Shown: positions 1,321 through 24,112 of the stretch, one piece after another
How positions within the stretch are numbered: the first letter of the stretch is position 1
Layout: every line of letters starts with the position of its first letter
Assembly (NCBI GenBank): GCA_022799035.1
Contig: JAAWNQ010000005.1
Location: forward strand, 32,126 to 96,125
Length of the DNA stretch: 64,000 bases
Origin: Oscillospiraceae bacterium
Lineage (GTDB): Bacteria; Bacillota; Clostridia; Oscillospirales; Oscillospiraceae
Direction: 5' to 3'
The notes under the pieces: generated by a model
Database searches by the model: none
What the model saw: the letters and a program-made list of their open reading frames with translations, nothing else
Told to the model about the DNA's origin: nothing
Translations under genes and position numbers: made by a program

Positions 1321-1360
1321 AAACGCTGTAACCGTTTTCCTTGACGGTTACAGCGTTTTT
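1321..1360. terminator. Stem-loop terminator just inside the left end
   Basis: aaacgctgtaaccgt ttccttg acggttacagcgttt followed by TTT; 15-bp perfect stem. Confidence 0.85.
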
Positions 1361-1440
1361 GCAGTAATACCAGTGGGAGAGTACAAGGTAGATTTGCCTT
1401 ATGCCAATTTCCTAAGCATTGGAATATCTTACCATAATAT

Positions 1441-2382
1441 CTATATTTCCGCTTTGGCATTGTGTGCAATAGGGGTTATAAAATTATTCAAATCTGTTAC
1501 ATTTATTTCCCCTTTCCAATAACGGGTAAGTGCAGTTTCATAATCGGGCTGACTATATTTCGCTTTGATATGGCCCGCATAACCCAACTCCGAGCTAAAA
1601 AAATCAATCCCCTTATTGATTTGCTCTAAGCAATATGTTAAAAAACGAAAGAAAAGGGATTTATACTGCGCAGACCGATACAATAAGTAGCTTTCGCTCA
1701 AATGCTGATTGCTATAATTTCTTCCAAGCCAAAATATTTTTTTGGTAGATTTAAGCAACTCATAATCCATGCGTTTTTGGTGTTCCGTGAAATTGTAGAT
1801 TCCATTTAAATTGGGATCGTTAATTAGCCCGGAGGTGACCGCTGAACCAAGGGAACCGAGACGATTCATTAATCTCCTGAAATACTTCCGGTGAAAACCA
1901 AGATCTTTCAAATCAAATATAATAAGATATTGCTTCTCAATGCTAAACTTTTCTTTTTTTCCTTCGTATGTTTTACCAGAGAAACGGCAGGTATTGTTTC
2001 CTACCCAATAGCATACTGAATGGATTGGAACAAATTCCATTCCCTGCACAACGTTTTGCTTATCGCGCCATAAGACAATTTCTACATAGGCTTTCCCATT
2101 TAATAGCAGTTCATGCATAACACTACTTAGTAATTCGTCAAAAGAATACCCTAATGCAGAATAGTCGCAAAATAGTAAAAGCCGTTTCAAATGATCGTCA
2201 TGGGGGGACACATCATAAAAACGGTCATGGTCTCCGATAGGGGCAAGTTTGCTAGAAAAATGGTGGCAAAAATCCTCAAGAAACATACTCCCATACAGAC
2301 TTTGCTTATACTTTCGAGTTTGAGAGCACCACATCCGTGGTGATTGCTGGGAAGAAGTATAATTATGGAGGTCATTCCTCAT
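1441..2382 (-). CDS. Hypothetical protein (~313 aa)
   Basis: Start MRNDLHNYTSSQQSPRMWCS; start overlaps the stop of the upstream gene (2372). Contains SFDELLSSVMHELLLNGKAYVEIVLW. Confidence 0.75.
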   Translation of the reverse strand: MRNDLHNYTSSQQSPRMWCSQTRKYKQSLYGSMFLEDFCHHFSSKLAPIGDHDRFYDVSPHDDHLKRLLLFCDYSALGYSFDELLSSVMHELLLNGKAYVEIVLWRDKQNVVQGMEFVPIHSVCYWVGNNTCRFSGKTYEGKKEKFSIEKQYLIIFDLKDLGFHRKYFRRLMNRLGSLGSAVTSGLINDPNLNGIYNFTEHQKRMDYELLKSTKKIFWLGRNYSNQHLSESYLLYRSAQYKSLFFRFLTYCLEQINKGIDFFSSELGYAGHIKAKYSQPDYETALTRYWKGEINVTDLNNFITPIAHNAKAEI

Positions 2383-4837
2383 ATAGCTGTTCCTCCCATT
2401 TTCCATCGCTCTGATACTTTTCTTCGATATACTGATTAACACAACAAATAAAGTAGATGTCTTCTACCTCGTTAGTGAATCCGAGATCAGCAAAATTTGA
2501 TCCACAAAATGTTTTGAATAATTTACTTTCGGTTTTTATAATTTGTTGCCCAAATGGACCGTATTCAATCTCATAGAGTTCAGAACTTCGGATTGCATTT
2601 GCAATGCGAATTTTCCACCCGGTTTGTAAAATATCACGGTTGCCTATTCCGAAAAAAAGGTGCTGCCTTGCTTCGGCCATTTGTGAGATGTATTGTAGTT
2701 TTGCAACGCCATCAGGCATCTGCTTAACAAAACCAGTTAATTCATTCTGAACAAGTTCTTTCCAACAAGGCTTCTTGGAAAACTCTCCCCATAGAATAGC
2801 AAAGCCACTAATCATTGCGTATTCAACGATTGGAGCTGTAGCAACATGGAGAGTCGCTCGCTGAAGATGTGGCTCTTTGGTTTTGATTACATCAGTTCGT
2901 ATATACTCATCATACAAAAGCATGGTTGTTAAAAATCCTGAGTAAAGACTCTTAAATGTTTCAAAATCATCGTTCTCAATTGCTTCAACCAAAGATTCAC
3001 AAATATGATTATAGCAAAGTCCCAGAAGATCCGGATAATCGTTTCGATTTTCCCAGTGAGAGACTGAAAATATACTACTGCATTTTGCTAAATGCTGGGG
3101 GATCTCTTTATGCATATTTTTAAGACAATGCTTGGCATTTTCAACATTGCTTTCATCCCATAATATTGTCGGTTCAATATGGAACTCTTCTATGGTTGAC
3201 CAATGCTGCTCTATTAGTGAGACCGCCACTTCACTTTTGTGCTCAAATTCTAGGGAATGCGCAAATACCACTCCGGCAGGGAAAAACTTTTTGCCTTTGA
3301 GCAAGTCTTTCCCTGTAGCCATGATATTATCGGAAAGTACAACAATCGTTTCTGACATATCATTCAAGAAAGAAACGACTGCTTTGGCAGCAATTTGTTT
3401 TATATACCAATCGGGGGTTAGCCTTCTTCTTTCTAAGCGTAGCTCAATTGCAATCTTATGGAACAAGTTATCCATATACTGATTGTTAATTAAGGGATTT
3501 GATGTAATTGCTGCCTTATTTGGGAATTGTAATTTAGTTGCTTGATCTAATAACGATGGAATATTCATGGATCTCAAATAGGAATTAATGGCAACAATAA
3601 TGCTAATGTAGGCCCCGACAAATGAGTCAAAAACTGCAGCAGTCATTTCATCGCTATTTTCATTACTTGTTTGAATGTAACTGGATTTATACACTGATTG
3701 AAGCCTCTCCAGAGTATGAACCCATGAGAGAATATCCCCACATTCTAATGCATGAGTTGATAGGTTAATGATGTGATTGATGTATCCTAGGACTCGGTCT
3801 GCATCTCCATCTTTACATAGTTTTTCAAAACCAATTCTATTTACCTTTTCAATGTTATCTTCAAACCACCTGTAGTCCCGCGCTGTTTTAGTGTTGAGTG
3901 TGGTTCCTGTTTTAAGTGCAATTTCAATTTCGGTATCTGAAGCATAGTGCCATTGTGGATAGTTCACCTTGTCTTTGTACCAAAGCGAGTCGTAACGGAT
4001 ATGTCCCTTTTCTTGCCAATACAATTCCATTAGTAACAATGTATCTGACATAAATGATAGTGTAGCCGCATTTTGATTTGCGGGATTATCTGCATTGAAC
4101 TGTGAAATGGCCAATAAATCATTGAGGCCCCGAAAACACACCTTTTGGAAGTGATATTGAAAACTTGGATTTTGTGAATAGAAACCGCTTCCAGAAACCC
4201 GTTTCATGGCAATTATCATTTCCGGGTAAAGATTCTGTGAGAGGTAATAGGTGTTAGAAAGTTGATTTGTTCGATTTCCAACAATGCTGAACATAATAAT
4301 CGTGTAAACAGTCATAAGCAAAAAAACCAAGGTTGAAATATAGGAGATGTCTATCCCTACTACACATTCTCCAAGCAGAATGATGCAGAAAACAATATAG
4401 CTGATAATTTGGCGAACGCAACGGTTAGTAATAATATCACGCTGAAAGAGTTGCGATAAACGATTTGGAGCATTTGCATATTTAGCGGAAAATATTGACA
4501 CTATGTTTGAACAATACAATCCTAAAATCACACCGGCAATTCCAAGACCGCCAAGGAAAATATCAACTGCTATTGTTTGATTCATTGTAACAGTATCACA
4601 CCGAAGTATATGTGTATAGATAAATGGAAGTAGCCACTTATCTCCAATAAACAATATTCCGGCAAAAACCAAACTTTTTAAAGTTTGCCAAACCGTTGTG
4701 CGGATAATGAGGCTCTGAAAAGAAATTGCCTTTTTACCATTATCATATTTTTTTGTTATAGAATACCATACCTTCTGCATCCAAAATGCAATTTTGCTTA
4801 CCTGGTGCCGAAGAATCCAAAATGCCTTATGATTCAT
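2372..4837 (-). CDS. Large hypothetical protein with N-terminal membrane segments (821 aa)
   Basis: Long AT-rich ORF; hydrophobic stretches such as SLVFAGILFIGDKWLLPFIY, IAVDIFLGGLGIAGVILGLYCSNIVSI, IISYIVFCIILLGECVVG, ISTLVFLLMTVYTIIMFSIVG, then a long soluble region. Confidence 0.85.
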   Translation of the reverse strand: MNHKAFWILRHQVSKIAFWMQKVWYSITKKYDNGKKAISFQSLIIRTTVWQTLKSLVFAGILFIGDKWLLPFIYTHILRCDTVTMNQTIAVDIFLGGLGIAGVILGLYCSNIVSIFSAKYANAPNRLSQLFQRDIITNRCVRQIISYIVFCIILLGECVVGIDISYISTLVFLLMTVYTIIMFSIVGNRTNQLSNTYYLSQNLYPEMIIAMKRVSGSGFYSQNPSFQYHFQKVCFRGLNDLLAISQFNADNPANQNAATLSFMSDTLLLMELYWQEKGHIRYDSLWYKDKVNYPQWHYASDTEIEIALKTGTTLNTKTARDYRWFEDNIEKVNRIGFEKLCKDGDADRVLGYINHIINLSTHALECGDILSWVHTLERLQSVYKSSYIQTSNENSDEMTAAVFDSFVGAYISIIVAINSYLRSMNIPSLLDQATKLQFPNKAAITSNPLINNQYMDNLFHKIAIELRLERRRLTPDWYIKQIAAKAVVSFLNDMSETIVVLSDNIMATGKDLLKGKKFFPAGVVFAHSLEFEHKSEVAVSLIEQHWSTIEEFHIEPTILWDESNVENAKHCLKNMHKEIPQHLAKCSSIFSVSHWENRNDYPDLLGLCYNHICESLVEAIENDDFETFKSLYSGFLTTMLLYDEYIRTDVIKTKEPHLQRATLHVATAPIVEYAMISGFAILWGEFSKKPCWKELVQNELTGFVKQMPDGVAKLQYISQMAEARQHLFFGIGNRDILQTGWKIRIANAIRSSELYEIEYGPFGQQIIKTESKLFKTFCGSNFADLGFTNEVEDIYFICCVNQYIEEKYQSDGKWEEQLYEE

Positions 4838-5011
4838 AAACGCCTCCCGCCAACAGAAACTGTATCGGAAATACCGCTATGGTACGCTTTTATTTATTTT
4901 GGCTTAAAGCCTACTACTTTTTATTATACTACAGCTTTCGATCTATCTCAACGAGTTTTTATGCATTATTCTCTGCAAACTTGCATTTTGCATACCGATA
5001 AAAAGTGGACA

Positions 5012-5058
5012 ACAAGAGAGAAGGCTCCTCCAATTTTGGAGGAGCCTTCTCGTTGTTT
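5012..5058. terminator. Bidirectional terminator
   Basis: gagaaggctcctcc aattttg gaggagccttctc perfect stem (5018-5051) with flanking A/T tracts. Confidence 0.85.
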
Positions 5059-5156: not shown

Positions 5157-7706
5157 TCAGTACGATGTCCGATGATATGCATCGCCGTTCAGGTAGAGCG
5201 TGTCAACACTTTCACCGTAAGTACCTGCAGGGACAAGTTCAAGAGTATATTCAGCCCCATCATATCCATAAGAGGTGGATCCGGTTTCTGTTATGATATG
5301 GATTATGTTGTTCTGGACATCTTCTGCGGAAACCCAAAAATCGAGAATCAGGATTCCGGATCTTGACCCCGCATTTATGAGCAGTCCATTATCTTTGGCC
5401 TCAATTGTTATACTGATGCCATTTATATACTCATCGGAGTAGTGCCCAACAAAATTGCGGATATTGGTGGGCAGGGCTGCCGAAGCACTGATCCGATACA
5501 ACTGATCCATTTGATCAAAGATTTCCGAAAGAGGCTCTTCAATTCCAGATGAACCTTCAATGATTGCTGCCACCGTATCCCAAGCGGTTTCTCTATCAAC
5601 TGGGAAGTTGTCGCCCCAGCGTATAGACCAGTGAAATTGTCCTGCAATATTGTTATACAAAACATGGATTAAGGCATCCGTGCTGCCCAACTCAAAATCA
5701 TTCCACATAACATCTGGGATATCTTCCTCCTGCAGTGGACCCAGCCCACCGGGGTATTTTGTGCTGACGGCAATAATACTGCCATATTTTTCGTCCCACA
5801 GTTCATTGTAATATTTCAAGGTATCCAGTGTCCAGGAGTCAATAATATCTGCGCTGTCATTCACATAGTCCTCATAATTTTTGCTTGACCTTTGGGAGGT
5901 TTGAGTCGGAGTGACAGGCTCTGTGGTGTTAGTTCCTCCTGTCTTTCCTTGCAACACGCTCTCCGCAGCTGTTTTTCGTTGTGCGGTTCCCCATGCAATA
6001 TTACTTTTTCGCCGGAATGTGAGTGTTTCTCCATCTTCTGTATTGAAAACCAACATTCCAGAATCCAACTGGCCGATCATTTTTTCTTCCGTATGATCCA
6101 ACCAATAACTGAACTCCCCATTAGAGTATTTCCAAGTGGCAGTCACTTCGGTCCATAAGTTGGTTTCTGTATCAAACGCACCGATGACAACGGCATCCCC
6201 AGAGAAGACATCCATGCTGGTGGCTGCCAAAAGTCCAACTTCATCTGCCAGCCATGTATTTATGCCATCGGTCATACTGTAAAATTCCCAATGCCCGACA
6301 GCATCCCTGTCATCACCGTAGTACTTTCTGGAGTTCGTTGGGGCCGGATCATCCGAGAAAATATCATTGAAATACCAATCATTCGACCCAATCAGACCTT
6401 CGGCCGCAACCGCTCCAATGGCGCCGCCGACCAAAGACAGGCATAAGCCCAGCCCCAAAGCAAACAGGATAGCCTTGCCCATTGAGGTACCCTTTTTCTT
6501 CTCGCTGACATCTCCGCTTTCTGTCAGGAGAATACACCGCTTATAATACTCCGCATTGAAGCGCTTGCCCAGGCGGATGTTGCAAATAATCCCATAGATC
6601 CCTTGCAGCAGGGCCAGAGTAAGTATGACCCAAAGGCAAACGCTGATGTTGGTTTCAGGTTTAAAGAGCGAAGTCAGGGCAACGGACATACCTGCGATGG
6701 CCGCCACAGAGAGAAGCAGATAAGAGCGGTAGATCTGCCAGAATATTTTTCCGCTTTTGCGGTAGTAGCAGAACATTCCGGTGAAGAAAAAAGCGGCCCA
6801 GTTAAACTTGACCTTCTCTCCCCACTTTGCATTGGCAAACTGCTCCTGATAATAGCCAGTCTTTTTAACGATAAACTCGCTCAGGTCTCCGGTGTAGCTG
6901 CTGACAGCTTTCAGATTAACCCGGTCCTGCAAGTCCTTCCGCAGTGTCTCCATGACAGCTTTTTTCTGACCGGCAATATATTCTTGACTGCCATCTTTTT
7001 TTAAGATGATGATATTATAGCGAGAGCACATCCACCAAAAAAGAGCCGGAACTAAAATACATATCAACGCTTCTTGCAGTTCTATCGAAGATATGATTAA
7101 GCCTACAGCTACTATGATCGTCAATAACAGGCAGCAGATGAAAAAGAATGTTGACATGTACCACTTTAATTCTACGCAACGGATGTCAGCATAAGGGATC
7201 TCTTTGCCATTGAGAGGAATTGAACCATCCTCCTGATGATCACCGATGATTACTGTATCCTTTTGCAGAATGACATCATTTTTGATTCGACGAAGAGTGA
7301 GAAGATTGGGGTTTCGTGCGGTTAGTGCATAGCGCTTATCTTCTTCTGGCCCGCCCTCCTGTTCCTTAGGGAAAGTGTCTGCTGCAACAGTTTTTGGGCT
7401 CTCTTCTTTCATCCCTTCCGTTGCTGGAGTCGGTTCATAAATTGACTCAGGTTCAACCGTTCTCTTATGCTCTTCCCAAGTAGAAAACGGTTCTCCCTGT
7501 GGCTGGGGGGCTTCTGCCATGACAGTGACAGGCGGCTCCTCAATCAGCTTGGCTCCGCAGTACATACAGAAGTCCACCCCGAAGTCCACCTCCCTGCCGC
7601 AGACTGGACATTGGGGGATCTCGACCTTGGAGCCGCATTTGGGGCAGAAGCCTGCATGATCCGGCATTTCAGCTCCGCATGACATACAAAATTTACTCAT
7701 ATCCAT
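5157..7706 (-). CDS. Double zinc-ribbon multidomain membrane protein, hypothetical
   Basis: Starts MDMSKFCMSCGAEMPDHAGFCPKCGSKVEIPQCPVCGREVDFGVDFCMYCGAKL (paired CxxC), followed by several transmembrane segments and a long extracytoplasmic part. Confidence 0.82.
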   Translation of the reverse strand: MDMSKFCMSCGAEMPDHAGFCPKCGSKVEIPQCPVCGREVDFGVDFCMYCGAKLIEEPPVTVMAEAPQPQGEPFSTWEEHKRTVEPESIYEPTPATEGMKEESPKTVAADTFPKEQEGGPEEDKRYALTARNPNLLTLRRIKNDVILQKDTVIIGDHQEDGSIPLNGKEIPYADIRCVELKWYMSTFFFICCLLLTIIVAVGLIISSIELQEALICILVPALFWWMCSRYNIIILKKDGSQEYIAGQKKAVMETLRKDLQDRVNLKAVSSYTGDLSEFIVKKTGYYQEQFANAKWGEKVKFNWAAFFFTGMFCYYRKSGKIFWQIYRSYLLLSVAAIAGMSVALTSLFKPETNISVCLWVILTLALLQGIYGIICNIRLGKRFNAEYYKRCILLTESGDVSEKKKGTSMGKAILFALGLGLCLSLVGGAIGAVAAEGLIGSNDWYFNDIFSDDPAPTNSRKYYGDDRDAVGHWEFYSMTDGINTWLADEVGLLAATSMDVFSGDAVVIGAFDTETNLWTEVTATWKYSNGEFSYWLDHTEEKMIGQLDSGMLVFNTEDGETLTFRRKSNIAWGTAQRKTAAESVLQGKTGGTNTTEPVTPTQTSQRSSKNYEDYVNDSADIIDSWTLDTLKYYNELWDEKYGSIIAVSTKYPGGLGPLQEEDIPDVMWNDFELGSTDALIHVLYNNIAGQFHWSIRWGDNFPVDRETAWDTVAAIIEGSSGIEEPLSEIFDQMDQLYRISASAALPTNIRNFVGHYSDEYINGISITIEAKDNGLLINAGSRSGILILDFWVSAEDVQNNIIHIITETGSTSYGYDGAEYTLELVPAGTYGESVDTLYLNGDAYHRTSY

Positions 7707-7714
7707 ACCTCTCT

Positions 7715-8068
7715 TTATTTCAGTATTTGAATTATTTTCGATGTGACCATTAGAATAAGCTGCCCTGCCGCAAAGCCGCAGATAAACCCTGTCAACAGCC
7801 GCCGCAGGTTGGTGGATGGTTTTATCCCAAGTGCCTGGATCCCCCAGTCCAAAAGCATGATGCCGCACATCAGGACAATACACCAAACGGGAAGGCGCAC
7901 CCAGGCAAAGCTAAGCACTCCGACAGCCTCTCCCAAGAATACACCGGTGCATCTGGCGCAGACAGGGAATTGCTGTCCATGCCAGAAGAAGCTCCGTTCC
8001 GGCAGCTGATGGCAGCCTGACAGCCTGCCCAATGTCATGGCGGCCCTGTATGCCCGGCCTTTGCTCAT
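7715..8068 (-). CDS. DUF2085-like membrane protein
   Basis: GRLSGCHQLPERSFFWHGQQFPVCARCTGVFLGEAVG, Cys motif typical of DUF2085. Confidence 0.75.
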   Translation of the reverse strand: MSKGRAYRAAMTLGRLSGCHQLPERSFFWHGQQFPVCARCTGVFLGEAVGVLSFAWVRLPVWCIVLMCGIMLLDWGIQALGIKPSTNLRRLLTGFICGFAAGQLILMVTSKIIQILK

Positions 8069-9743: not shown

Positions 9744-10922
9744 TTAAAACAGGGGCGTATCAAAGATACTCATTTTATATACAGCTAAGATCGCCGGAGC
9801 GTACATACCCGGCTGGGCATCACATTCTTCTGGGGGGATCTCTTTCCAGGTTCCGTCTGCCCTGACCGCCCAAAGACCTTGAAATTGTCCATAGCTGTAT
9901 CGGCTCCCTGTGTACTCCCACTCGAAAAGCGCAAACAGTGGCCGACCGCTTTCATCTGCGTATCCCGAAAATACCGCAATACTGTCCGGGTATGCTTCTT
10001 TGAGCTGTGCGGCATAGGGCGCACTGTTCCCCTTTACGGGCGTGACAACGCTTTCCGCCGGGTCAGCCTTCTTCAGGGCTTCAATGTCCACCGTGCCAAA
10101 GACATAGTGCCGGTTGGTGAATCCAACCGTGTCAATGACCTCCCGCACCTCATCGCTGTGATAGTAGGCAAAAACGCCCACTCCGATCCAAAAGACCACA
10201 TACAACCCGGCCAGAGCCACCAGCGGCCGCAAAAGCCACCGCCGTACCCGGCCCAGGTAAACGGCCCGCTTGATTTGAGCGGTGGTATCATAACGGTCTT
10301 TAGGGTCCAGTGCGGTACACTTCCGCAAAATTCCTTTCCAGCGACTCCTTCGGGCCAACGGCCCCAACAATTGACGGAAAGTTACACCCAGTGCGTAGAT
10401 ATCCGCTCTCGCATCAGTCTGGGAGAAGCCATACTGCTCCGGGGGCGCATAGCCTCGGGTCCCCAGCAGGCGGGTATCCTTCCAGGCTTCCGGCTTCTCC
10501 TCCCGGGCAGCATCAAAGTCGATGAGTCGCAGGTGTCCGTCTGGGGCCAACATCAGATTGGAGGGCTTGATATCCCGGTGGAGGATGCCCTTGCTGTGGA
10601 GGAAGGACAGCACATCACACAGCTCCAGTAGCAGCCTTGTCAACTGCCGCTCGCTCAGGCTGACCGTTCCAAGGTCAGTCCCTTCGATATATTCCTCCAA
10701 CACAACGGTTCGGTCGCCTTCCCATTCCGCCTTCCATATCCGGGGCAGATAGGGGTGATGCAACTCCCTAAGCTGTTCATAGATGGGGTTCCAGTCCGAC
10801 ATTTCCTTGCAAACAAAGCGCTCTCCACTTTCGGTATCCCGAAGCAAGGTTACTTGATTGCGCTCTGAGGAATGTAAAATTTCTATCGTTTCCAGCAAGA
10901 CGGTCACCCCCTCTGCGCCCAT
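9744..10922 (-). CDS. Serine/threonine protein kinase with C-terminal TM segment
   Basis: GILHRDIKPSNLMLAPDGHLRLIDFDAAR...GTRGYAPPEQYGFSQTDARADIYALGVTF; TM LLRPLVALAGLYVVFWIGVGVFAYY. Confidence 0.93.
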   Translation of the reverse strand: MGAEGVTVLLETIEILHSSERNQVTLLRDTESGERFVCKEMSDWNPIYEQLRELHHPYLPRIWKAEWEGDRTVVLEEYIEGTDLGTVSLSERQLTRLLLELCDVLSFLHSKGILHRDIKPSNLMLAPDGHLRLIDFDAAREEKPEAWKDTRLLGTRGYAPPEQYGFSQTDARADIYALGVTFRQLLGPLARRSRWKGILRKCTALDPKDRYDTTAQIKRAVYLGRVRRWLLRPLVALAGLYVVFWIGVGVFAYYHSDEVREVIDTVGFTNRHYVFGTVDIEALKKADPAESVVTPVKGNSAPYAAQLKEAYPDSIAVFSGYADESGRPLFALFEWEYTGSRYSYGQFQGLWAVRADGTWKEIPPEECDAQPGMYAPAILAVYKMSIFDTPLF

Positions 10923-10977
10923 TCTACCACACTTGCCGTCCAGAAAAAAGAGCGGAGGGTATCCGCTCGCCATTATT

Positions 10978-15536: not shown

Positions 15537-15773
15537 GCGGACAAGAGAGTGTGTATGAAAACCTGCCGTACCAGAATGGCCGATGCAACCTCGTAGCGCA
15601 AGCTGACTGGAGGGAAAGAAAGCCGTCCTCATTGAAGAGCAGGTTGGAGTGGGGGTGATAAGGTTTTCCTTTTTTCTCATGGCCCTTACTGGGGAGAGGG
15701 GTTACACCTGCCACCGGAAGGATGAGGGACATAGGGTGCCGGGGAGACACCTGAAGAATTGGAGGAGGAGATT

Positions 15774-16964
15774 ATGAGTGAAGACACGAAAGGAAAAAGT
15801 CTCTCTCGGGAAGATATAGAGCGTCCGCTGAGGGCAGATCACGGTCAACGTCATAAGTCAAGCAGGAAATTCCCGGGATTTGATGAGGTTCTGAACGAGG
15901 CTTTTTCGACTTATGATACCTTGCCGGATATTAAAGATTGGCAGGACCAATTTGAGGACTTCTTATATAAACTTGGGGTCGATTCTATGATTCTGCGAAT
16001 CAAGCAAAAAAACGCTGAAGATACCTCCGGAAGAGGATTTGTATATGAATTTCCACCATCTGTAGCAGTATTGTTAAAAGACTTCATGCAAAATTCTAAG
16101 AGGCCATATAAGGGAAGGCGTCCATGCGACAACAAAAAGTATCAACTATATCATAATATAGCGCTTGGTCGCTTCTCAGTCACTTATTGTGACGATTATC
16201 GCATTATATTAAATCAGGTAATTGACGGTGTAAAGGAACTGCATACAGCTTATGGAATACCCCCTCGCAAAACCGAAAAGGTTGTTGATCAAACGGTCAT
16301 TAACTTCTGGACCTCCATAGAACAGGGGACACAAGAGTATCGCAGAGAATATATCTCTCCGCTGGTTGAATACCTCTTGGGATTGCAAGCGGTCTTTCCC
16401 TTCAGGAAGTTGAAAATGGTTTCGCAATATGCATTTGAAAATGTGCTTTCACGAGAAATATTGATTCTGCTTGATTATGCCATAAGTCAAGACTTTTATA
16501 CCTGTTTTCATATGGCCCTGACGACAAAAGTACAAGAAAAAGACATCGTGTTCAACAGACTCTGTGTATTTAGGAAAAAATGGGCACGAGTTGTCAAAAA
16601 GGTTTTTGTCATTCATCAACATGATAGAGATTATGCATTAGGTTTGCCGGATAACGTGTTGAAGAGTGATTACTATAGCTTAGCGGAAAAATTGGTACTC
16701 TATTCGGGGACAGCGTGTAGCCGAAGTGATAAGCGGTCTCATTTTCGTGAAAATGCGCCCAAAATACGAAAAGACCGGGATACATACCGAAAGATGTATA
16801 AAGCTTTGCTACGTGATGTAGAACTTATACCCGAAGATCCGATTAAAATGCAAGGGAAAAAAAGATTGCATCCATCGACATGGTTGTTTTTGGATATGGC
16901 GTCAAAAGAGCAAAAAAAACTTGTTCGAGCAAGGAAACGCCGCAATATCCGACGTTTCCGTTAA
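15774..16964 (+). CDS. Hypothetical protein (~396 aa), AT-rich orphan
   Basis: MSEDTKGKSLSREDIERPLRADHGQRHKSSRKFPGFDEV...; RBS ggaggaggag; lower GC than adjacent genes. Confidence 0.78.
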   Translation: MSEDTKGKSLSREDIERPLRADHGQRHKSSRKFPGFDEVLNEAFSTYDTLPDIKDWQDQFEDFLYKLGVDSMILRIKQKNAEDTSGRGFVYEFPPSVAVLLKDFMQNSKRPYKGRRPCDNKKYQLYHNIALGRFSVTYCDDYRIILNQVIDGVKELHTAYGIPPRKTEKVVDQTVINFWTSIEQGTQEYRREYISPLVEYLLGLQAVFPFRKLKMVSQYAFENVLSREILILLDYAISQDFYTCFHMALTTKVQEKDIVFNRLCVFRKKWARVVKKVFVIHQHDRDYALGLPDNVLKSDYYSLAEKLVLYSGTACSRSDKRSHFRENAPKIRKDRDTYRKMYKALLRDVELIPEDPIKMQGKKRLHPSTWLFLDMASKEQKKLVRARKRRNIRRFR

Positions 16965-17110: not shown

Positions 17111-17209
17111 TTTTCGCAACTTGGTGGATCAAAGCGGTCTGCACCTTGAAAACAGAATATTCAGTCTACCGTTCTTTCAGAGCCTCCCCCAAATAAGGAG
17201 GTTTTGAAA

Positions 17210-19141
17210 ATGAAGAAGGGTATTAAAAAAGTGGTTGGAATTGTAGCCATGGGAGCTGGGCTCTACCTTTTGTATCGGATTATTATTGGTAAGGGCGATA
17301 GGCAACTGGATCGCAGGGATAACCTGGTGCCATCCACTCCGATCCCCGAACTGTTAATGTCCTCAACCGAAGGTGGGGTGTGGTTTGGAATTACCCCTGC
17401 TTCCTGTGAAGGCAATAAGGGTTCCAATAAGGTTGTTAACAGAGCTTACGGCAAGCCGACAAGTAAAGATGGCAATGTCCTGATTATCGGCGGCCCGGGC
17501 TCTGGGAAAACCACCGGTCCCATCAACCATACCCTAAAAACATGGAATGGCAGCCTTGTAGCCTTCGACTGCAAGGGAGGTATGGAAAACCTTTGGTATG
17601 ATCTCCACGCCGACGATGGGAAGGCTCCCATCGTTTTCGCTCCATGCCGCAAGCGAGGCGGCCCTTCCGCATATGATCCGTTTGCCATAATGCGGTTGGA
17701 TCCAAACCATGCAAAGGAATATGCCTGTGATTTGGCAGACGCACTTATCCCCATCAGTGTGTCCGAGCGAGAACCGGTCTGGAAAGAAAATGCCCAAAAT
17801 ATCCTAACAGGAATGTTTCTGTATCATTTCGATGTTGGTAACACCTTTATGGATGCCATAAAGTCTATAGAGGTTTTGTCAATCCCGGATATGATAGAGG
17901 TTCTTGGGAACAGCGGAAATGAACGGGCGTGGGCGTTTGTCAGCAAATTGGCAGGGGCCTCGGTGAAAACATTGGCAAGTGTTGGAGCAGAACTCAGTCA
18001 AGTCTCACGGTTGCTTTTGACCGAGGAGATTGAGGCAGCTCTTACCCCTGTATTGGGCCAACCGCTTCTTGACTGGAGCGACCTAAATACCAGCCGCACC
18101 TCACATGGTGTCATCCTCGACATTCCTTTGGGAAAGTTGAGGCAATGTGCCCCGTTAGTCAGACTGGTTTTGTCCCAGCTATTGAAGACCCTTGCCTTAC
18201 GGAGGGAAAAGACCTATTCCGGATGTGACTTGCCGGATGTGGCCCTCTTGTTAGATGAGGTGGCTCAGTTGGGACGCATGGAAGTCATCACAGATTCCCT
18301 TGCTACCTTACGCAGCAAAGGGGTCACTATGGTACTTGCCATACAGTCCCTTGCTCAGCTGGAAGAAAGCTACGGAAAGGCGGCAGCTCGTATCGTTGCC
18401 GATCTGTGCAGCTACAAGGTAGTGTTCAATGCGACTGATGTAGAAAGTCAGGTTTATCTGTCAGCGCTCATTGGGACCACTGATGTGCTTGCTGATACCG
18501 TCTCTTTCAACCCCAAAGGCCGCCACTTATTAAAACAAGTGGTGCCGGTGCCAAATGTGGGGGTAACGGCCGGGCGAACCAACCGGCCATTGATCTATCC
18601 GGAGACTCTGGCTTATTTGAGCCAGCCCATCGTGATTAGCCCCTTTGGGGTAAATACAGTGCAGAAAGCTCCCCTATACCTTCGGCAGGTCAAAGCAACC
18701 CCTCTTTCGCTATGTGTGGAGGGTCACGATGACTCTATCTATGAGATAAAAAAGCAACTCAACGAGATAGGAAAACAGTTTTTGGCTCTTACCCAGCCGG
18801 AGGCTTGTGATTGCCCTCGTAGTGGCGATTACAAACTGGCAGTGGATAATACAACGAAAGAGAGGTTGCCGGACAAGATATGTGACTTCTGCCAAACGGA
18901 GCCGCGAAGTGCCAGGGAGATCCGGGAGCAATTTGACATAGAGAAAACACTATGTCAAGAAGTGTATATCAAACCGCTACTCAATCAAGGGCGGTTAATG
19001 ATGTTGTACCCAGACACTCCAAGGCATCCTCAGCAGAAATATTATTCATCCAACTCACCCGAACTTACTGAAAACTCCTTTGCGCAGTTAAACAAAACCA
19101 GCGGAAAGGAAGGGGAGGAAGGTGAGAATGATGATGATTAA
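17210..19141 (+). CDS. VirD4/TraG-type coupling protein (T4CP)
   Basis: NVLIIGGPGSGKTTGPINHTLKTWNGSLVAFDCKGG (Walker A), LPDVALLLDEVAQLG (Walker B), SKGVTMVLAIQSLAQLEESYG. Confidence 0.95.
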   Translation: MKKGIKKVVGIVAMGAGLYLLYRIIIGKGDRQLDRRDNLVPSTPIPELLMSSTEGGVWFGITPASCEGNKGSNKVVNRAYGKPTSKDGNVLIIGGPGSGKTTGPINHTLKTWNGSLVAFDCKGGMENLWYDLHADDGKAPIVFAPCRKRGGPSAYDPFAIMRLDPNHAKEYACDLADALIPISVSEREPVWKENAQNILTGMFLYHFDVGNTFMDAIKSIEVLSIPDMIEVLGNSGNERAWAFVSKLAGASVKTLASVGAELSQVSRLLLTEEIEAALTPVLGQPLLDWSDLNTSRTSHGVILDIPLGKLRQCAPLVRLVLSQLLKTLALRREKTYSGCDLPDVALLLDEVAQLGRMEVITDSLATLRSKGVTMVLAIQSLAQLEESYGKAAARIVADLCSYKVVFNATDVESQVYLSALIGTTDVLADTVSFNPKGRHLLKQVVPVPNVGVTAGRTNRPLIYPETLAYLSQPIVISPFGVNTVQKAPLYLRQVKATPLSLCVEGHDDSIYEIKKQLNEIGKQFLALTQPEACDCPRSGDYKLAVDNTTKERLPDKICDFCQTEPRSAREIREQFDIEKTLCQEVYIKPLLNQGRLMMLYPDTPRHPQQKYYSSNSPELTENSFAQLNKTSGKEGEEGENDDD

Positions 19142-19973
19142 GACGAACATCGTTCGTGCTGATGGTATTAGCCGTGGTGCGGGGCAGTCAGTGGCTGGGC
19201 ATCTGGCCTACTGTACCGGGAGAGCTTACCGGGATTCATACTACGGCAAAAAGGCATATGGGGAAAAGCGGGCAGACCTCGTGTTTGACGAACTGCTTCT
19301 TCCGTCCCAGGCTCCTGCGGCACTTCGGGAGTATCAAGCGTTTTTGGATGCCTGGAATGCCAGTGAGAAGCATCCCAGGGCGCTTATGGCCCACAAGTAC
19401 ATTCTGGCTTTACCCAACGAACTGGATGCGGCGGAATGGATCGGGTTGGCCCGTTCCTATGCGCAAGAGATGTTTGTGAGCCGGGGCTTTCCCGTGTTCT
19501 ACGCCATCCACCGTGGGCTTGCCAGTGAACATCCCAAGCCGGAAAGTATTCAGGCAGTAGGTACTCGGGAAGATAACCCCCATGTACACCTGCTTGCCGC
19601 ATTCCGACAAGTGGGGGAAAATGGCTTTTTGGACACGAAATACGCCGGAAGGACCACATACGGAAAGGACTTTCTCCGACAGGTACGCCAAAACTGGTGT
19701 GCCTGTGTGAATCGTAGCTATGAGCGGCAGGGAGTCGATGTTCGGTTTGTGGAAGGGGCGTATCGAAACGGGTTGATGGCTGGACTGCCAACAAAGCACA
19801 TTGGCCCTTATGCTATGCGGCTGGAAGCAGCCGGAATAAAAACCGAGGCGGGAGACCGCTACCGGTCGATCTTATCCCAAAACAGAGTCCGCAAGCAGGA
19901 ATGTGATCATGAGTTCCTACTTGTGGACAGCCAAGACAAAGAACATGAATATTGCGCAGATCGTGAGGAATAA
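19128..19973 (+). CDS. MobA/MobL-family relaxase
   Basis: GQSVAGHLAYCTGRAYRDSYYGKKAYGEKR...YILALPNELDAAEWIGLARSYAQEMFVSRGFPVFYAIHRG...DNPHVHLLAAFRQVGENGF (HxH relaxase motif); overlaps T4CP 3' end. Confidence 0.9.
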   Translation: MMMIKTNIVRADGISRGAGQSVAGHLAYCTGRAYRDSYYGKKAYGEKRADLVFDELLLPSQAPAALREYQAFLDAWNASEKHPRALMAHKYILALPNELDAAEWIGLARSYAQEMFVSRGFPVFYAIHRGLASEHPKPESIQAVGTREDNPHVHLLAAFRQVGENGFLDTKYAGRTTYGKDFLRQVRQNWCACVNRSYERQGVDVRFVEGAYRNGLMAGLPTKHIGPYAMRLEAAGIKTEAGDRYRSILSQNRVRKQECDHEFLLVDSQDKEHEYCADREE

Positions 19974-20856: not shown

Positions 20857-21891
20857 ATGGATAATAAAAATGACGAACTGATGAAGGCTGGCGAGGTGCT
20901 GCTGTACAGCGATAACAATGGCAAAGAGTTTGTGAGTGTGGTTTTTCAGGAGGAGAATTTCTGGCTGACACAGAGCGGGATGGCACAGCTCTTTGACTGT
21001 ACCCCGGAAAATGTGCTTCAGCACTTGAAGAACATCTATGCCGAGGAGGAATTGGAACAAGAGGCAACTACTAAGAAATTCTTAGTAGTTCGTCAGGAGG
21101 GGTCCAGGCAGGTCCAGCGCAATCTGGACCACTATAACCTGGACGCCATCATTGCCGTGGGCTACCGAGTGAATTCCAAAAAAGCAACCCGGTTCCGCCA
21201 GTGGGCCACCAAAACCCTGAAGGAGTATATCCAAAAGGGTTTCGTCCTCAACGATGAACTGATGAAGAATGGCCGACCCTTCGGGAAGGACTACTTCGAC
21301 GAGCTTCTGGAGCGCATCCGGGAGATCCGAGCCAGCGAGCGCCGGGCCTACCAGAAGATCGCCGACATCTTCGAGCAGTGCAGCTATGACTACGACAAAG
21401 ACAGCGAGACAACCAAGGCATTCTATGCCTTTGTACAGAACAAGCTCCATTTCGCTGTCACCGGCAAGACGGCGGCAGAGCTGATCAGCGAGCGGGCCAC
21501 CTTGGACAGCCCCACCATGGGCCTTACCACCTGGAAGGCAGGTCCCGGAGGGAAGATTTTGAAAAGTGATACCCTGGTGGCCAAGAATTACCTGAATGAG
21601 AAGGAGATCTCCCGCCTCAACCGTCTGGTCACCATGTTCATCGACTATGCCGAGCTGATGGCCGAGGATGAAGTGCCTATGTCCATGGAGGACTGGCTTG
21701 CAGAGACCGACCAGTTTCTGACCAACAATCGCCGAAAGGTGCTGGCCGGAAAGGGGAAGGTCTCCCGGGAAGAGGCAGAGAGAAAGGTCTCCGCCATTTA
21801 TGAGGAGTTCCGCAAAAAGCAGGATGCCGCCTACATCTCGGAATTTGACCGCCAGACGGCGAAATACCTGAAGGGTGAAACCGATGATTGA
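20857..21891 (+). CDS. RhuM-family protein
   Basis: ENFWLTQSGMAQLFDCTPENVLQHLKNIYAEEELEQEATTKKFLVVRQEGSRQVQRNLDHYNLDAIIAVGYRVNSKKATRFRQWATKTLKEYIQKGFVLNDELMKNG. Confidence 0.95.
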   Translation: MDNKNDELMKAGEVLLYSDNNGKEFVSVVFQEENFWLTQSGMAQLFDCTPENVLQHLKNIYAEEELEQEATTKKFLVVRQEGSRQVQRNLDHYNLDAIIAVGYRVNSKKATRFRQWATKTLKEYIQKGFVLNDELMKNGRPFGKDYFDELLERIREIRASERRAYQKIADIFEQCSYDYDKDSETTKAFYAFVQNKLHFAVTGKTAAELISERATLDSPTMGLTTWKAGPGGKILKSDTLVAKNYLNEKEISRLNRLVTMFIDYAELMAEDEVPMSMEDWLAETDQFLTNNRRKVLAGKGKVSREEAERKVSAIYEEFRKKQDAAYISEFDRQTAKYLKGETDD

Positions 21892-24112
21892 AAAATTTGA
21901 TATAGCAGGTTACTGCCGAATCTCGGTGGACGAGGAGCTGGACCGGGACAACACCTCCATCGAGAACCAGAAGGCCATCATCGAGGATTTTGTAAAGCAC
22001 AGGTTCCCTGGATCAACTCTGACCTTCTACGAAGACCGGGACAAGTCGGGTTACACCTTTGACCAGCGGCCCGGCTATCAGGTCATGCGCCGGGAGCTGG
22101 TGACACATCAAAAGGACATCCTCATTGTTAAGGACTTTTCCCGGTTTTCACGGCGGAACAGTCGGGGACTGGTGGAACTGGAGGACCTGCGTGATGCCGG
22201 TGTCCGCATTATCTCCATCGGGGACAACATCGACTTTCCCAACGATGACGACTGGCTTAAAATTCAATTCCAGTTCCTTATCAACGAAATGCCCGTCACC
22301 GATGCCAGCAAGAAGGTCAAGTCAGTCATCCGCCGCCGACAGGAGGATGGCCGCTGGCTCTGTGCCGCCCCCTATGGATATATCATCAATTCCCGGCAGG
22401 AGTTTGAGGTGGTTCCCACCGAAGCCGACATTGTGCGGAAAATTTTTACCCGCTACATTGATGGATGGGGATATAAGAAAATTGCGGGCTACCTCACGGA
22501 CCAGAACATTCCGACTCCCCGTATGTGTGAGGAGACCCGGAGAGAAGCGGCGGGGAAGGAGGTCAAGCGCCGGGCTAAAAGCGCATGGTCCATCGTATCC
22601 GTCCAGGGCATCATCGACAATGACTTTTATATCGGCACCTTCCGCCAGCGGAAATATACCCGTGTGAAGATCAATGGGAAAGACCGTAAGCTGGACGAGA
22701 GTGAGAATGTGGTCATTGAAAACCACCATCAGGCTATTCTCGACTACCGCACCTTCGCCACGGCCAAGGCCCTGCGGGAAAGCCGCTCTACCGCCAACTA
22801 CCGGGGGGTAAAGAAGTACGACAATGTGTATTCCGGCTTTCTGGAGTGCGGCGACTGCGGCAGCCCCATGTTTGCCATGAGCCGGGCAGATCTGAAGCCG
22901 GCCTACCGCTGCGGGACTTATCATAATCGAGGGTTAAAGGGCTGCACCAGCCACCATATCCGGGTGGACAAGCTGGACGAGGTGCTGAAGGCCTACCTCC
23001 GCAAGGTGAGGGACAACTCGGCGGAGATGTTGGACCGGCTCAACGCCGACCTTGCCAGGGAGCAGGAGGACATTGGGGCGACACAGCAGGCCGCCGAGAA
23101 TCTGGAGACTGTTCTTGCTGATTTGCAGGAGGAGTTGAAGGCCACCAAGCGCCAGCGTATCCGGGATGTGATGAAGCACCCGGAACAGGAGGAGACTCTG
23201 GAGGCCACCTACGACGAGCTGGAGAACGACCTCCTGCGTCGTATTGACGGCATTCAGAACCAGATTGCCATGACAAACGACCGTCGGAACACCATCATTC
23301 GGGTGAATCGGGCGGCCAAGACGGCTATGGAGGTTTTTGAGGACATTCTGAATAAGCCCAAGCTGGATCGAAACGACCTCCAGCTCATCATTGAAAAAAT
23401 CAAGGTCTACGAGGATCATATCGAGGTGCAGCTGAAAGCTGATATTGACAGCATCCTCCGCAGCGGCGAATTGCCGGAGGATCTGACAGGGGAGAATGTA
23501 GGGGAGGATAGTGTCCACCCGGATTCAGTTGCCGCCATGGCTCCGGCCAACATTCCATTGGAGCGGCAGGCGGCTGACAGCCGTCCCTATGAGATTCAAA
23601 TCATCCAAGAAAGTGATAAGCACAGCGATAAGGTTTTCTCTGTCAAAGTTATCAGTAACGGCGACCCGCTGGAGATCTACACCGACAAGGATGGCGAGGT
23701 CATCTTCAAAAAGTATTCCCTTATGGGTGGCCTTTCCGACTTCGCCGCCCAGATGTGCGAGACCCTGAACAAGACCACCGGCCACGTCACCGTCATCACC
23801 GACCGGGACAGCTGTATCGCCGTGGCGGGAGCTCCCCGCCGGGACCTGATGGACAAGCGGCTGGGGGAGCGGATGGAGGCTGTGCTGGAGGGTCGAAAGA
23901 TCTATCAGGCCCAGCCCGGAGAGACCCCTATGCCCGTCAGTGACGAATCCGGCAAGTTTTTCGTCACCTGCGCCGCTCCCATCCTGGCCGAGGGGGACGT
24001 GCTGGGGTGCGTTCTCTTTGCCGGTGAGGAGGGGGACCTTCAGACCGGGGATACCGAGTACAAGCTGCTGCAATCCATGTCCGGCTTCCTTGGTCGCCAC
24101 ATGGAGGGGTGA
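21884..24112 (+). CDS. Large serine recombinase; C-terminus currently fused in frame to the SpoVT C-terminal part
   Basis: AGYCRISVDEELDRDNTSIENQKAIIEDF (catalytic Ser region), KDFSRFSRRNSRGLVELEDLRDAGVRIISIGDNIDF, CGDCGSPMF...YRCGTYHNRGLKGCTSHHIR zinc ribbon, coiled coil. Recombinase part ends about 23659; the remainder is SpoVT. Confidence 0.95.
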   Translation: MIEKFDIAGYCRISVDEELDRDNTSIENQKAIIEDFVKHRFPGSTLTFYEDRDKSGYTFDQRPGYQVMRRELVTHQKDILIVKDFSRFSRRNSRGLVELEDLRDAGVRIISIGDNIDFPNDDDWLKIQFQFLINEMPVTDASKKVKSVIRRRQEDGRWLCAAPYGYIINSRQEFEVVPTEADIVRKIFTRYIDGWGYKKIAGYLTDQNIPTPRMCEETRREAAGKEVKRRAKSAWSIVSVQGIIDNDFYIGTFRQRKYTRVKINGKDRKLDESENVVIENHHQAILDYRTFATAKALRESRSTANYRGVKKYDNVYSGFLECGDCGSPMFAMSRADLKPAYRCGTYHNRGLKGCTSHHIRVDKLDEVLKAYLRKVRDNSAEMLDRLNADLAREQEDIGATQQAAENLETVLADLQEELKATKRQRIRDVMKHPEQEETLEATYDELENDLLRRIDGIQNQIAMTNDRRNTIIRVNRAAKTAMEVFEDILNKPKLDRNDLQLIIEKIKVYEDHIEVQLKADIDSILRSGELPEDLTGENVGEDSVHPDSVAAMAPANIPLERQAADSRPYEIQIIQESDKHSDKVFSVKVISNGDPLEIYTDKDGEVIFKKYSLMGGLSDFAAQMCETLNKTTGHVTVITDRDSCIAVAGAPRRDLMDKRLGERMEAVLEGRKIYQAQPGETPMPVSDESGKFFVTCAAPILAEGDVLGCVLFAGEEGDLQTGDTEYKLLQSMSGFLGRHMEG
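23641..23661 (+). repeat. Left attP arm (element side of attR)
   Basis: tgtcaaagttatcagtaacgg; inverted partner of 1232-1252. Confidence 0.7.
23660..23668 (+). repeat. attR core copy GGCGACCCG
   Basis: Identical to 1226-1234 and in the same frame. Confidence 0.88.
23660..24112 (+). pseudogene. spoVT: spoVT 3' part (C-terminal GAF-like domain), separated from its start by the element
   Basis: GDPLEIYTDKDGEVIFKKYSLMGGLSDFAAQMCETLNKTTGHVTVITDRDSCIAVAG...MSGFLGRHMEG continues the SpoVT pattern from 1136-1234. Confidence 0.92.

Follow-up and report, generated by a model that had tools for sequence, protein, structure and literature searches.

The 64,000-nt window analysed here (assembly GCA_022799035.1, contig JAAWNQ010000005.1, positions 32,126-96,125 of the forward strand; coordinates below without a locus label refer to the window) contains a cassette of two minus-strand genes. 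One encodes an 821-aa membrane protein (2372-4837; described from its ORF, hydropathy, an AlphaFold model and homologues in eight lineages) and the other a 313-aa soluble partner with a predicted phage-portal-like fold (1441-2382; ORF, AlphaFold, Foldseek and a profile test). A preliminary description of this DNA had reported that the two genes overlap on the minus strand, and both ORFs are indeed present and share 11 bp (2372-2382). Overlap or near-contact of the two genes is also kept in the homologous loci, and the 11-bp overlap probably reflects translational coupling. A strong Shine-Dalgarno sequence, GGGAGG, lies 5' of both start codons. A predicted promoter-like site, TTGAGA-17-TATAAT, matching 11 of 12 consensus positions, is located 86 bp upstream of the start of the 821-aa protein gene (4923-4951, minus strand), in a region that is not enriched in such sites overall. 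The cassette is oriented towards attL and, judged from these sequence signals, looks like a self-contained single transcription unit. Its AT-richness relative to the host, also reported previously, is evident from a GC content of 37.4%, compared with 48% for the entire element in which it resides and 61% for the chromosome outside the element.

The cassette is enclosed, as had been described, by two perfect stem-loops with fully complementary 16-bp stems: one downstream of the cassette (1320-1335/1344-1359) and one between the cassette and the upstream gene (5018-5033/5036-5051). Both appear terminator-like by complementarity and folding energy (z-scores of -7.1 to -9.2 against dinucleotide shuffles on both strands, with none of 200 shuffles as low). 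For genes on the minus strand, the right stem-loop is situated where termination of the upstream gene (5157-7886) is expected, and the left one where that of the cassette is expected. Since an obvious terminal T-run accompanies only the left stem-loop, on the plus strand, the assignment of the two structures as terminators is a prediction.

The carrier of the cassette is a 22.4-kb mobilizable element in a gut bacterium, inserted in spoVT, with the cassette at its attL end. The attL core, GGCGACCCG (1226-1234), lies inside the interrupted spoVT gene and recurs as a 9-bp direct repeat in attR (GGCGACCCG, 23660-23668); outside the two copies lie the 5' and the 3' portion of spoVT, respectively, which confirms the earlier placement of attL beside the cassette. 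The 5' fragment left by the integration, MKATGIVRRIDDLGRVVIPKEIRRTMRIRE, occupies 1136-1225 on the plus strand, and the 3' part (SpoVT_C) is found at the other end of the element. Because the element encodes, all on the plus strand, a large serine recombinase (21875-24112, with Resolvase, Recombinase, Zn_ribbon_recom and SpoVT_C domains), a VirD4-like coupling protein (17204-19141) and a MobQ/TraA-like relaxase (19122-19973), and also replication and recombination genes, we classified it as an integrative mobilizable element and not a prophage. The recombinase ORF continues in frame across attR and through the C-terminal half of SpoVT, and the resulting 745-aa fusion includes the complete SpoVT_C domain (E 4e-36); integration therefore both disrupts spoVT and adds a SpoVT tail to the recombinase. 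Elsewhere in the element, another AT-rich orphan gene of the cargo lies in a 40% GC stretch (15759-16964) and encodes a 401-aa protein without a Pfam match. The segment 5157-10973 encodes proteins of 909 and 231 aa with zinc-ribbon N-termini and membrane segments and a DUF2085 membrane protein, followed by two HTH regulators and then a Ser/Thr kinase-like membrane protein (9744-10973); it is possibly a signalling block of the element.

Neither cassette protein passed a family cut-off in Pfam, NCBIfam, PHROGs or PADLOC, in line with the preliminary description, which had recognised no family in either; nor was homology to a housekeeping or conjugation function, which that description had named as evidence against its interpretation, found for either protein. 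Searches of the family libraries with several homologues returned nothing significant, the matches to URGCP, DUF2254, DUF3444 and PDC-S06 being sub-threshold and limited to single members. Among the PADLOC models no convincing match was obtained for any member (the PDC-S06 match covers 39 residues with an E-value of 0.0025 in one homologue only), and a sequence search of the PDB with the proteins gave no match.

The 821-aa protein has about four N-terminal TM segments (approximately residues 55-189) followed by a long all-helical soluble domain. This layout had been noted from the single sequence, and hydropathy agrees with it for most of the eight homologues, some of which show fewer clear peaks. 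The AlphaFold model (pLDDT 63.8, four input sequences) is all-alpha, with low confidence in the TM part. These predictions support a protein that crosses the inner membrane with about four TM helices and has a large helical domain in the cytoplasm. A fold search with the model matched nothing but designed toroids and helical repeat proteins of a generic kind, and we therefore make no claim about its fold. With one N-terminally short copy left out of the count, residues 87-190, which make up one eighth of the protein, contain 11 of the 39 invariant residues; the TM region therefore probably has a function beyond anchoring.

The two genes are adjacent, on the same strand and in the same order, in the window, in Flavonifractor An10, P. 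gallinarum, Pseudoflavonifractor sp. Marseille-P3106 (of the same genus as the window genome) and the metagenome-assembled genome SIG424, and also on two Paenibacillus plasmids, on a Burkholderia glumae plasmid and in the Bacillota genomes G503 and G595. Close relatives of the pair are found in Oscillospiraceae, and distant full-length relatives of the 821-aa protein are located on plasmids of Paenibacillus lautus, Paenibacillus sp. Cedars and B. glumae; in all three plasmids the next downstream gene encodes a relative of the 313-aa protein, with an overlap of a few bases. The annotated start of the B. glumae partner (L013:11487-12422, NZ_CP021077.1) is about 100 bp late; its reading frame is open from an ATGA that overlaps the membrane-protein gene. 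Profiles of the two proteins matched the same 3 of 398 Bacillota genomes. A fourth match of the membrane-protein profile, in genome G854 (E 4e-4, 64 positions), was discounted as spurious, since that genome gave no match to the partner. Between lineages, identity drops to 15-20% in either protein, and the two diverge in a correlated manner (Mantel r = 0.94, none of 10,080 permutations as high). Computation thus shows that the two genes are linked and co-evolve as a pair in two phyla, and we hold it to be almost certain that they constitute a conserved functional pair. Whether the genes co-occur elsewhere had been raised previously as a check, and they do, always next to each other. The pair is absent from most related genomes; it is rare, patchy and horizontally spread, yet always together. 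As the genome collections were sampled or pattern-scanned, its true range is probably wider.

In most loci with visible context the pair resides on or near mobile DNA. In G595 it lies directly downstream of an integrase and of HsdM-like (with an HSDR_N domain) and HsdS genes, between these restriction-modification (RM) genes and a group II intron-type reverse transcriptase, and no transfer gene was recognised within 18 kb. Upstream of the RM genes of this locus, a 609-aa protein (L019:15156-16985) has no Pfam or PADLOC match and is possibly a further unknown member of the island. In B. glumae the pair adjoins a CopG/VapC pair on a MOBF/MPF_F plasmid, and in An10 it adjoins a serine recombinase, and a DUF4143 ATPase and a tyrosine integrase lie within about 4 kb. 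A DUF4143 ATPase is also found 3 kb from the pair in SIG424; the ATPases near these two loci correspond to PDC-S01/DUF4143. In Paenibacillus the carrier is a metal-resistance plasmid that also has TcpE-type transfer genes; the parts of this plasmid that were examined contain no annotated phage structural (head or tail) genes. Altogether, RM genes are adjacent in one locus, VapC in one and DUF4143 ATPases are near the pair in two. Contexts of this kind typify mobile cargo and would fit defence, and do not amount to statistical proof of an association with defence islands.

Two natural copies of the system carry damage at the 5' end of the membrane-protein gene. In Marseille-P3106 (L010, around position 10000) an internal deletion has removed the promoter region and the first ~160 codons, and in P. 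gallinarum (L008, around position 10000) the N-terminal part of the gene lies in a different frame; the partner gene is open in both despite the damage. Selection for the complete system is therefore not constant. The membrane part could be costly, or phase variation is possible, an indication that comes from two related copies only.

Profile comparison and structure prediction, which the preliminary description had proposed for both proteins, yielded a portal-like result for the partner and no specific fold for the 821-aa protein. The AlphaFold model of the 313-aa protein (pLDDT 67, pTM 0.70, five input sequences) was compared with the PDB using Foldseek, and its best match had an E-value of 1.4e-5 and a probability of 1.00. 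All of the best 50 matches listed were phage or gene transfer agent (GTA) head-neck structures, nearly all of them portals; the 22 listed entries with E<=0.001 were without exception portals or portal complexes. In BFVD, the named matches at E<=0.001 were portals, head-tail connectors and related phage proteins, mostly the first two. The alignments with the listed top matches cover most of both proteins. The TM-scores against portals are modest, about 0.4, which indicates that the arrangement of the domains differs or that the model is imperfect. As in phage portals (PF04860; G20C/P74-26, 80alpha, HK97, HTV1), the predicted fold comprises a helix and a beta 'wing' followed by long helices, and a glycine at a GNAY-like position is invariant: G96, in the region aligned to the portal 'GNAY' motif, is conserved in all eight sequences. 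Unlike portals, most of which have 400 residues or more, the partner has only about 310, and it is accompanied by a constant membrane partner and not by terminase, scaffold, capsid or tail genes, none of which was recognised around the cassette or in the homologous loci that were read.

At the sequence level, residues 82-127 of the 313-aa protein gave a weak match to Pfam Phage_portal (E 0.021; 14.5 bits, far under the gathering cut-off of 39.1 for PF04860), and this match was absent from the other partner homologues searched. HHalign comparison of a profile of the close homologues with a profile of 34 portal-region sequences from Clostridia genomes gave a score of 40.9 in the wing region, against 23.2 for the best of 300 column shuffles and 16-20 for unrelated families; in each of the four alignments tried, none of 300 shuffles reached the partner-portal score. 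With a portal profile of only five or six sequences no signal was obtained. Since the HHalign probability was only 56% with the close alignment and 3% once the most distant homologues were added, we designate the 313-aa protein as probably portal-like and do not file it under Phage_portal. By prediction, it has the tertiary fold of portals, and we consider a portal-like fold of the partner very likely. A partial similarity limited to the helix and beta wing, in a pair unrelated to phage and concerned, for example, with envelope stress or host interaction, appears rather unlikely. The moderate model quality and TM-scores and the loss of profile probability with distant homologues agree with it, whereas the near-exclusive presence of portals among the listed top Foldseek matches, with alignments over most of both proteins, and the failure of all shuffles to reach the profile score argue against it.

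Portal proteins are the DNA gate in the heads of tailed phages and herpesviruses and in gene transfer agents. From the context of the pair, an anti-phage role of any kind is somewhat more likely than not. The reading that we favour, with slightly less than even confidence, is that the cassette encodes a conserved system of two proteins, a portal-like protein and a membrane effector, which interferes with phage and has moved horizontally as cargo of integrative elements and plasmids. The RM, VapC and DUF4143/PDC-S01 neighbours and the scattered distribution on mobile elements suggest phage interference. Against defence, neighbours of that kind are present in some loci only, DUF4143 ATPases are common, and no known defence model was matched convincingly; against the portal fold, model quality is moderate, TM-scores are modest and sequence-only homology to portals is below standard significance. 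The preliminary description had proposed a phage defence or host-interaction module: the predicted fold of the partner now adds a link to phage, and defence itself, plausible from the context, is unproven.

How such a module might act can be outlined tentatively, in a sensor/effector scheme that may well prove wrong. The portal-like protein would be tethered to the membrane protein or in complex with it and would serve as the recognition part, recognising or co-assembling with a phage portal, terminase, scaffold or passing DNA. The membrane protein, in which a TM segment is among the most conserved parts, would be the effector, switched to membrane damage or to a block of DNA passage, so that the infection is aborted. 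In a more specific and similarly tentative form, a portal-fold protein would have gained a use outside viruses as one half of a dedicated two-protein immune module, whose portal-like ring, anchored in the membrane, would sense or jam the packaging or injection of the phage genome; on this same reading, the module would represent a class of phage interference not previously described. Avs proteins, which recognise phage large terminase and portal proteins, provide a precedent for immunity that targets these components (PMC12931631).

The same precedent, together with the predicted portal fold, fits superinfection exclusion or poisoning of assembly, in which the portal-like subunit alone would act as a decoy in portal rings or bind terminase and the membrane protein would merely position it (portal and terminase are proven immunity targets; PMC12931631). 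We regard this as quite unlikely: the very low sequence similarity to real portals argues against mixed rings, and the membrane protein is conserved as tightly as its partner, which makes a passive anchor unlikely. A further alternative follows from the nature of portals as DNA channels: a portal-fold ring at the membrane protein could serve the transfer, uptake or maintenance of the element's own DNA and not defence. Transfer genes are indeed present on elements that carry the pair (VirD4 and MobQ here, TcpE-type in Paenibacillus, MOBF/MPF_F in Burkholderia). However, these element types are unrelated and several already have standard coupling proteins and relaxases, the G595 pair lacks any recognised transfer gene in 18 kb, and most related genomes do without the pair; we therefore judge a DNA conduit to be improbable. 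That the cassette is a decayed prophage remnant, as a portal-like partner at the end of an integrated element might suggest, we reject as extremely improbable, since both ORFs are intact, the element is mobilizable and not a phage, no relative of the pair was found among 50,697 phage records or among the viral contigs that were scanned, the host genome contains no PF04860 portal, and the same pair recurs in two phyla.

Returning to phage interference by a portal-like protein and a membrane effector, RexAB and other abortive systems consist of a sensor and a membrane channel. The pair resembles RexAB in combining a soluble protein with a membrane protein of about four TM segments in a two-gene operon on a mobile element, and differs from it in that no sequence relation was found and the 821-aa protein is several times larger than RexB; to our knowledge, no RexAB-type abortive system has a portal-like component. 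The roughly four TM segments with their invariant residues are compatible with a RexAB-like channel and are not proof of one. T4 gp20/gp40 also join a portal-fold protein to a membrane protein, in a membrane-linked portal assembly that is a step of phage assembly; gp40 is small, and we know of no relationship between it and the 821-aa protein. With Avs (AVAST; PMC12931631) the pair shares a proposed tie to phage DNA packaging, but it has no STAND ATPase or nuclease domain, and here the host-side protein itself looks portal-like.

The composition of the pair appears to be new: our literature search yielded no description of a non-viral two-gene module with a portal-like protein, nor any paper that treats a defence protein of this kind or mentions these accessions, and the libraries searched contain neither of the two families. 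If true, a conserved non-viral pair that combines a portal-like protein with a large membrane protein would mean that a part of the virion has turned into a stable cellular module. If the module is immune, it would represent an unexpected way to target phage DNA packaging or injection. As the pair is compact and its hosts are related to tractable strains, the idea is directly testable.
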